Assembly: GCF_900182545.1 (NCBI RefSeq)
Contig: NZ_FXTJ01000003.1
Span: forward strand, 62,001-126,000
Length of the DNA stretch: 64,000 nucleotides
Direction: 5' to 3'
Source: Geodermatophilus aquaeductus
GTDB lineage: Bacteria; Actinomycetota; Actinomycetes; Mycobacteriales; Geodermatophilaceae
Under the pieces are notes generated by a model. It saw only the letters and a list, made by a program, of their open reading frames with translations, ran no database searches and was not told where the DNA came from. Shown in pieces: positions 3,650-47,161 of this stretch. The translations under genes were made by a program, and so were the position numbers. Position 1 is the stretch's first letter; every line of letters starts with the position of its first letter.

Positions 3650-3665
3650 TCGAACGCGTGTTCGA
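3650..3665 (+). promoter_or_regulatory. LexA (SOS) box
   Basis: TCGAACGCGTGTTCGA matches the actinobacterial LexA consensus TCGAAC-RNRT-GTTCGA at every defined position. It covers the place where the -35 box should be: a CAGACT -10-like hexamer follows at 3675-3680 and a GTG start at 3687. LexA bound here would block transcription of the downstream gene until DNA damage. Confidence 0.8.
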
Positions 3666-45150: not shown

Positions 45151-45165
45151 AGTACGCTGCGTGAC
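45151..45165 (+). promoter_or_regulatory. BldD operator at the bldD promoter
   Basis: AGTACGCTGCGTGAC fits the BldD consensus NTNACNC(A/T)GNGTNAN at all defined positions but one (G for T at position 2). The likely bldD -10 box TACGCT (45153-45158) lies inside it, so BldD should repress its own gene, as in Streptomyces coelicolor. Confidence 0.75.
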
Positions 45166-45208
45166 GACGGAGCCCCGGACACCACGACGGACAGTGAGCG
45201 ACAGACGC

Positions 45209-45745
45209 ATGAGCACCGACTACTCGCGGGCCCTCGGTGCCCGGCTGCGGGCCATCCGCAACCAGCAGGGCCTCTCCCTCCAGGGCGTGGAGGACAAGTC
45301 GCACGGCCGCTGGAAGGCCGTCGTCGTCGGCTCCTACGAGCGTGGCGACCGCGCGGTGACCGTGCAGCGGCTCTCCGAGCTGGCCGTCTTCTACGGCGTG
45401 CCGGTCTCCGAGCTGCTGCCCGACCCGCGCCCCTCGTCGGCGGTCACGTCGACGACGAAGATCGTGCTCAACCTCGAGTCGCTGGGCTCGCTGCCCGCCG
45501 ACGAGGCCGGTCCGCTGGCCCGCTACGCCTCGACCATCCAGGCGCAGCGCCACGACTACAACGGCAAGGTCCTCTCCATCCGCGCGGAGGACCTCAAGTC
45601 GCTGGCGATCATCTACGACATGAGCCCCGACGAGCTGACCACCCGGCTCATCGAGTGGGGCGTGCTCAACCCCGGCATGGACGGCGTCGGCAGCCAGGCC
45701 GACGACGAGGACGAGGGCTGGGACCGCCGCCGCGCCCCGCGCTGA
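45209..45745 (+). CDS. bldD: BldD, c-di-GMP-responsive developmental regulator
   Basis: A 178-residue regulator very close to Streptomyces BldD. Residues about 5-70 are the XRE-type DNA-binding domain ([39 protein letters not shown]). The C-terminal c-di-GMP domain keeps the RxD-X8-RxxD signature with Arg114, Asp116, Arg125 and Asp128, the same numbering as in S. coelicolor. c-di-GMP drives dimerisation and DNA binding there. A short acidic tail (ADDEDEGWD) ends the protein. The ATG at 45209 matches the family start; a frame open further upstream has no ribosome site. It is divergent from pyrR. Confidence 0.96.
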
Positions 45746-45760
45746 TCATCCGCTCCCCCA

Positions 45761-45796
45761 CGAGGCCCGCCCCGGCACCCGCCGGCGCGGGCCTCG
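45761..45796 (+). terminator. terminator of bldD
   Basis: CGAGGCCCGC (45761-45770) / GCGGGCCTCG (45787-45796), perfect 10-bp stem, 16-base loop that can pair further internally, 15 bases after the bldD stop. Confidence 0.75.
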
Positions 45797-45942
45797 CTGC
45801 GTCAGTGGGCGCGGATTGTGCACGCAGCGCGGCCGCGGGCCGCCGCCGGCAGCCGGGTGTGCACAGATCGGGGCCATGCGGCCGGGGGTGACCCCGGTGG
45901 GCGCACGCTCGTCCGGCGTCCTCGCAGGTCGCGCACCGGGAA

Positions 45943-45965
45943 CTGTCAGTGGGCGGACCTAGCGT
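45943..45965 (+). promoter_or_regulatory. PafBC-type (LexA-independent) DNA-damage promoter
   Basis: CTGTCAGTG (45943-45951), exactly 8 bases, then TAGCGT (45960-45965). This fits the mycobacterial RecA-NDp/PafBC promoter tTGTCRgtg-N8-TAnnnT in every defined position except the weak first base. It lies 37 bases before the GTG of the 49-residue ORF. A partial copy of the left part (GTCAGTGGGCG, 45801-45811) has no -10 box. Confidence 0.7.
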
Positions 45966-46001
45966 CGGCGGCGCCGAGAACGAGCACCCCGAGGAGCACC
46001 C

Positions 46002-46151
46002 GTGACCACCGTCCCGCCCGTCCCGATGCCCGACCGCGACACCCTGCTGGCGGCCGACCGCCGGGCCGCCCTGCGTCGGGCACAGCGGCTCAACGCCGGG
46101 GTCCGGGCCGCCGCGATGCTGGCCGCCGCCGAGGCCGGCCTGCGGGGCTGA
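46002..46151 (+). CDS. 49-residue protein, predicted DNA-damage inducible
   Basis: A short ORF from GTG 46002 to TGA 46149-46151, with GAGGAG 5 bases upstream of the start and the PafBC-type promoter 37 bases upstream. The product starts MTTVPPVPMPDRDTLLAADRR and continues as a single Ala/Arg/Leu-rich amphipathic helix (about 13-46) ending in Gly. No family recognised and no Cys or Trp. Promoter, ribosome site and codon use together argue that it is a real small protein, possibly binding nucleic acid or another protein through its basic helix. It is convergent with nusB. Confidence 0.65.
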   Translation: MTTVPPVPMPDRDTLLAADRRAALRRAQRLNAGVRAAAMLAAAEAGLRG

Positions 46152-46173
46152 GCCTCCCGGGTGCGGGCGGGGC

Positions 46174-46584
46174 TCAGGACGAGGTGGGCACCTCGGCGTC
46201 GAGGATGGCCCCGAGCACGCCGTTGACGTAGGCCGGCGAGTCGTCGGTCGACAGCGCCCGCGCGAGCTCCACGGCCTCGTCGATGACGACGGCGTCGGGC
46301 ACGTCGTCGGCCCAGAGCAGTTCGAAGACCGCCATCCGCAGGATCGCGCGGTCGACGTCGGGCAGCCGGTCGATCGACCAGCCGCGGGCGTGGGTGTCGA
46401 TCAGCTCGTCGATGCGGGCGCTGTTGGCCGCCACGCCCTCGACCAGCCGGACGGCGTGCTCGGGGACGGGCGGGGAGACGTCGGCGATCCGCTCGCGCAG
46501 CAGCTCCACCGCGTCGGCACCCCGCAGGTCGGCCTCGTAGAGGACGTCGACGGCGCGCTTGCGCGCCTTGGTGCGGGCAGCCAT
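46174..46584 (-). CDS. nusB: transcription antitermination protein NusB
   Basis: A 136-residue all-alpha NusB that joins NusE (S10) on boxA RNA of rRNA transcripts. ARTKARKRAVDVLYEADLRG is the Arg-rich N-terminus; DRAILRMAVFELLWADDVPDAVVIDEAVELARALSTDDSPAYVNGVLG is the conserved C-terminal half. It lies 16 bases after efp, in the conserved efp-nusB order. Confidence 0.96.
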   Translation of the reverse strand: MAARTKARKRAVDVLYEADLRGADAVELLRERIADVSPPVPEHAVRLVEGVAANSARIDELIDTHARGWSIDRLPDVDRAILRMAVFELLWADDVPDAVVIDEAVELARALSTDDSPAYVNGVLGAILDAEVPTSS

Positions 46585-46600
46585 GTCGTCGCGGGGGACG

Positions 46601-47161
<561 letters not shown>

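Follow-up and report, generated by a model that had tools for sequence, protein, structure and literature searches.

A 49-codon open reading frame (ORF) between bldD and nusB of Geodermatophilus aquaeductus is probably a single PafBC-activated gene, which would encode a damage-induced small protein, basic, lysine-free and made of one helix, that occurs only in Geodermatophilaceae. Both the damage induction and the translation of this ORF are what we infer from sequence comparison. The promoter class and its regulator are already known; what is new is a probable PafBC-type target and an unclassified, lineage-specific small protein. Among the matches listed in searches on PafBC, Geodermatophilus and small proteins or ORFs, which covered literature outside subscription journals, we found no description of the gene. 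Table 1 lists the features in the window, that is, the whole 64,000-nucleotide stretch of DNA that was analysed, which spans G000:C3:62001-126000.

Table 1. Positions in the window of the small-protein gene, its control elements and its neighbours.
Feature	Position	Strand	Basis
PafBC (RecA-NDp) type promoter: upstream element CTGTCAGTG, 8 bases, -10 TAGCGT	45943..45965	+	Sequence, orthologue alignment
Wider conserved block GGAACTGTCRGnGG-N5-CCTAGCGTC around the promoter	45939..45966	+	Orthologue alignment; served as pattern for the genome-collection scan
Ribosome-binding site GAGGAG, 5 bases before GTG	45991..45996	+	Kept in 14/14 orthologues
49-codon ORF, GTG start	46002..46151	+	ORF list, orthologues, selection, composition, AlphaFold2
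bldD, upstream neighbour (context only)	45161..45745	+	Pfam BldD-like_C and HTH_3
nusB, convergent downstream neighbour (context only)	46174..46584	-	Pfam NusB

The promoter reads CTGTCAGTG-GGCGGACC-TAGCGT, with the upstream element at 45943-45951, the 8 bases at 45952-45959 and TAGCGT at 45960-45965. Within it, TGTCAG-TGGGCGGACC-TAGCGT (45944-45965) is an exact fit to the mycobacterial form given in PMC8151990, which is TGTCGG or TGTCAG, 10 bases and TA-N3-T. The first-pass annotation had compared the site with tTGTCRgtg-N8-TAnnnT; this match holds with one mismatch, the 8-base spacing being as claimed but the first motif base being C, not T. Conservation among orthologues extends beyond the consensus into the wider block of Table 1. 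The site faces the ORF, and GAGGAG falls within the 36 bases that separate TAGCGT from the GTG, so that a ribosome-binding site, a GTG start (46002) and a 49-codon frame closed by TGA (46149-46151) follow the promoter at proper distance, as first described. At up to two mismatches the window holds six full-motif sites against 0.83 expected; the site at 45943 is the only one with a single mismatch, and the other five have two. LexA-type boxes (consensus TCGAAC-N4-GTTCGA, up to two mismatches) also number six in the window, with none between 39605 and 53663. The sole perfect one, TCGAACGCGTGTTCGA with 0 mismatches, lies at 3650-3665.

Elsewhere in the 5.43-Mb genome, the exact core TGTCRGTG-N8-TANNNT has three occurrences and its reversed counterpart none, while the looser TGTCRGTG-N8-TAGNNT, with up to two mismatches, exceeds its control no more than about twofold (269 versus 128). 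Similar sites, which show 1-3 mismatches according to the pattern applied, precede recA, ssb, the 3-methyladenine glycosylase gene (Tag) and an SRAP gene, and weaker candidate sites precede pup, the proteasomal ATPase gene and dnaB. At recA, the PafBC-type site is accompanied by a LexA-type box, TCGAACACGTGTTCG, 65 bases further upstream. A strict form of the motif, allowed up to three mismatches, gave 16 sites against 3 for the control: four stand upstream of this ORF, recA, ssb or SRAP, and the other 12 lie before genes without an evident damage role or inside coding sequence. The first rank of our ORF among these sites means little, because the strict form was derived from its own orthologues. 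Of the looser TGTCRGTG-N8-TAGNNT there are 22 sites in the genome at up to one mismatch, and downstream genes were read for the 12 most promoter-like, a choice that favours the PafBC reading; nine of the other ten look like coding sequence, because they fall in long high-GC3 frames. The regulator is encoded in the same genome: one region (L147) holds PafA (Pup_ligase), PafB (WYL+WCX) and PafC (HTH_PafC+WYL+WCX), a single frame on the reverse strand lying between pafA and pafB.

Some of these sites merit a separate record. The ssb site (L195, G000:C10 near 116099) lies 46 bases upstream of the start codon. Those before the proteasomal ATPase and pup genes have one mismatch (L066 and L067, G000:C4 near 175239 and 180614); if they are real, the damage response would boost its own protein-removal machinery. 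One of the only three exact motifs (L060, G000:C4:220978) stands before a frame of 143 aa that contains cysteine pairs, for which no Pfam or NCBIfam family was found.

Across 112 genomes of the family, the pattern ACTGTCRGNGGN5CCTAGCGTC with up to two mismatches gave 477 matches, against 8 for the reversed control. The PafBC-type promoter class is genuine in Geodermatophilaceae, in line with the first-pass annotation: recA and repair genes are preceded by it, and the window's genome encodes pafBC. We examined 30 strict-form loci, one per genome, in 30 genomes from other genera of the family, naming genes by eye and confirming single examples by Pfam. Downstream lay recA (11 loci), an ABC-transporter ATPase (8), a RecB-like PD-(D/E)XK nuclease (7), a protein starting MLIDCDxC and divergent from a DnaQ-type exonuclease (1), and other or unclear genes (3). 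RecA-NDp promoters are also described beyond mycobacteria, for example before Streptomyces SCO6735 (PMC5087735; PMC8223512).

The exact block GGAACTGTCRGnGGN5CCTAGCGTC was present in 29 stretches of the genome collection, of which ten lead into this ORF, ten into the MLIDCDxC protein, six into the ABC ATPase and three into others. The MLIDCDxC protein begins with [MV]-[LFI]-IDCDxC and has about 85-130 aa where complete. The copy in the window's genome lies outside the window (L002:1136-1420, G000:C3 near 313075) and has no Pfam or NCBIfam family; others are at L113, where the gene is divergent from the DnaQ-type exonuclease, and at L156, L157, L159, L160, L162, L163, L166, L171, L174 and L175. 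It resembles the 49-aa protein in its promoter block and its small size, but contains Cys, is unrelated in sequence and also occurs outside the family (Pseudonocardia). The ABC-transporter ATPase follows the strict promoter in Blastococcus and relatives (L092, L095, L097, L099, L103, L105, L108, L109, L150, L151, L158, L164, L165 and L176), with its start codon a few bases downstream and a Pfam ABC_tran match in one representative. In Nocardioides sp. ChNu-153 (L149), the exact promoter block stands before a SAV_6107-like HEPN protein. The family-specific block may thus be used as a cheap bait for short ORFs, and has already given a second small-protein family.

The promoter and the small protein are conserved together. 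A profile search of the 112 family genomes found 14 clear orthologues (E 3.7e-18 or better), in 11 of 26 genomes of the same genus and in 3/3 of a second genus; a further 17 genomes matching at E up to 0.01, all at 8.6e-5 or worse, were excluded from this count. A DNA pattern scan of the genome collection raised the total to 15, with a member in Blastococcus sp. CPCC 205250. TGTCRG-N10-TAGCGT is kept at 13/14 orthologous loci, the exception (G022) having CGTCAG instead of TGTCAG, one base off, and the spacing of the elements is identical in all 14. GAGGAG before the start and an intact frame are likewise found in 14/14. Every orthologue lies downstream of bldD, in two cases (G026 and G135) with frames that by reading resemble an ABC-transporter pair between bldD and the ORF. 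The relaxed motif, in a pattern too narrow to pick up a site as degenerate as the one in G022, was absent from the bldD-nusB stretch (700 bases where nusB was not found) of 15/15 congeners without the ORF. Because this promoter and this protein form a conserved pair among related species, the gene probably specifies a real DNA-damage-induced small protein.

Wider searches placed the protein in the same family. In an order sample of 397 genomes, 12 clear members were all in Geodermatophilaceae, and in a class sample of 394 the genome itself was the sole match; both searches scored 17 first-look candidates per genome, so that a divergent member could escape them. Three of the 397 order genomes, two outside the family and one inside, gave weak partial matches at E 5e-5 to 1e-4, which we treated as chance. 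A protein-guided scan of genome contigs matched 590 stretches and confirmed no relative, perhaps owing to low-complexity masking. A paralogue candidate in the window's genome (G000:C6:125271, E 0.004; locus L177) was also taken as chance, none of its frames standing out as a similar small ORF. As judged by these searches, the gene is confined to part of Geodermatophilaceae in the genomes searched.

It is missing from 15 of the 26 genomes of its own genus and is therefore dispensable. On a bldD tree of 28 rows (G026, whose bldD is cut, was omitted), presence and absence of the ORF require 3 changes against a mean of 9.6 after shuffling, and in one clade of 10 every member has it. The position common to the members favours an old gene with later losses, as read from this one gene tree.

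The 14 orthologues share 96 to 45 percent identity with the window protein and 13 invariant positions. All lack lysine, and the charge is +4 in the window protein and +3 to +8 across the family. AlphaFold2 predicted a loose Pro-rich N-terminus (residues 1-11) and one helix (residues 12-48), with a mean pLDDT of 87.7 and a pTM of 0.49; a model of a lone helix without tertiary fold says little on function. The basic amphipathic helix announced by the first-pass annotation was borne out as basic and as one predicted helix, but not as amphipathic: the helical moment was matched by 54/200 shuffles of the window protein and by 15 to 169 of 200 across the 14 orthologues. It is no greater than in shuffled sequence, and amphipathicity was rejected as a special property. 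Searches of Pfam, NCBIfam, PHROGs, PDB sequences and the phage collection brought up nothing convincing, and thereby no homologue with a known function. For the window protein, Pfam searched to E 10 and NCBIfam searched to E 1 returned nothing, and the best PHROGs match, at E 0.029, was unconvincing; the best Pfam match for the 14 members reached E 0.0032, in one member. A PDB profile search yielded six partial hits, all of them weak and on unrelated chains (best E 0.02), and tblastn against the phage collection returned none, with a low-complexity filter that might hide a query of this kind.

A more specific version of the preferred reading takes the protein for a checkpoint effector like Caulobacter DidA, in which a WYL-type regulator senses single-stranded DNA (ssDNA) and a tiny protein pauses division or replication. 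DidA is a small membrane protein, whereas none of the 14 members has a membrane-spanning stretch (maximum 19-residue hydropathy 0.05-0.98), and a membrane protein was rejected since no member has a hydrophobic stretch. Small size, an own promoter and lineage restriction speak for the checkpoint reading, as does the parallel with DriD-didA: according to a preprint, the ssDNA-binding WYL regulator DriD activates didA, which encodes a division regulator that binds FtsN (PMC12340889). Taken together, we regard it as doubtful.

Both neighbours named in the first-pass annotation, bldD and nusB, were identified by Pfam, and the end of the ORF is separated from the end of nusB by a gap of only 22 bases. 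This closeness would suit a different product: the promoter might be truly damage-induced with RNA as its main output, read-through into the convergent nusB lowering NusB and slowing rRNA synthesis, and the ORF being secondary. No intrinsic terminator was found from 45740 to 46700, in a scan that is weak for such genomes, and this too fits read-through. Against it stand the coding selection on the frame described below and the persistence of the unit where nusB is not adjacent: the distance to nusB is about 457 bases in G026, about 915 in G010 and about 448 in Blastococcus sp. CPCC 205250, and in G007 no nusB was found in about 4 kb downstream. With nusB about 450 bases or more away, or not found, in 4/15 known members, antisense control of nusB is disfavoured as the conserved role, and we consider this reading unlikely.

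The ORF itself carries a coding signature. The pN/pS analysis drew on 45 codons from each of ten orthologues, G022 and the three sequences of the second genus (g2) being omitted from the 14. The ORF frame gave 0.63, a value as low being reached by 2/300 column shuffles. The other five frames gave 1.40, 1.23, 1.43, 0.70 and 1.40, where 0.70 belongs to the antisense frame that shares its third positions with the ORF. Selection was moderate, with dN/dS about 0.4-0.7 in more distant pairs, and clearest in close pairs, which differed by 6 synonymous and 2 non-synonymous changes (G000-G017) or by 7 and 1 (G006-G002). Failure of the frame to be conserved had been put forward as what would speak against the gene; instead, frame, start, ribosome-binding site and promoter are kept in 14 genomes, and the frame is under purifying selection.

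These data bear on whether the locus is a small non-coding RNA in which the open frame is incidental, as a short, intergenic unit with its own promoter could be. Variable columns at codon positions 1, 2 and 3 number 18, 23 and 32 of 45, the third position varying most, every orthologue keeps the frame intact behind its GAGGAG, and no Rfam family scored above its gathering score (one sub-threshold match fell outside the ORF), all of which argue against such an RNA and make it very unlikely. A chance motif before a chance ORF is hardly tenable: long open frames are common in this GC-rich genome and two-mismatch motifs abundant, as counted above, but chance is contradicted by 14 genomes in which promoter, ribosome-binding site and frame are all kept, although protein identity falls as low as 45 percent.

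We return to the probable reading, a PafBC-activated small-protein gene. Under this reading ssDNA would activate PafBC, which would let SigA RNA polymerase use the TGTCAG/TAGCGT promoter; a short mRNA with a good GAGGAG site would then give a 49-residue product, predicted to be one long basic helix behind a Pro-rich N-terminus. The first steps would follow the mycobacterial scheme, in which ssDNA activates PafBC and SigA polymerase then uses promoters with a special -26 element (PMC11804915). As to function, the likeliest mode, weakly suggested by composition, would be docking of the helix on a nucleic acid or protein partner; that the Arg-rich helix acts in this way as a small damage-response modulator, on nucleic acid or on a replication, transcription or division protein, is possible, and we put it forward tentatively. 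Since Pup is attached to lysines (PMC10465538), a protein without lysine would be spared from it, a point of little weight, since genomes of such high GC content are probably poor in lysine codons. The boldest version, a lineage-specific, PafBC-controlled, lysine-free helical microprotein that cannot be Pup-tagged on lysine and serves as a damage checkpoint or modulator, a DidA-like counterpart in actinobacteria, seems to us rather speculative.

Geodermatophilaceae are known for radiation and desiccation tolerance. Should the protein take part in recovery from damage, it would provide a simple handle on damage tolerance in this family. The work on PafBC considered here is mainly mycobacterial, and the present case offers a compact, clearly bounded candidate target among soil actinobacteria.

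Compared with known systems, the locus is closest to the PafBC (RecA-NDp) regulon, with which it shares TGTCRG-N10-TAnnnT at equal spacing, in a genome that encodes PafA, PafB and PafC and whose recA carries both a PafBC-type site and a LexA-type box. It differs in that the driven gene, a candidate target, encodes a 49-aa protein without a convincing Pfam, NCBIfam or PHROGs match. The likeness to DidA and DriD is one of logic, and the 49-aa protein, unlike DidA, comes without a membrane-spanning stretch; what the two would have in common is an ssDNA-sensing WYL regulator that drives a small effector outside the SOS response.
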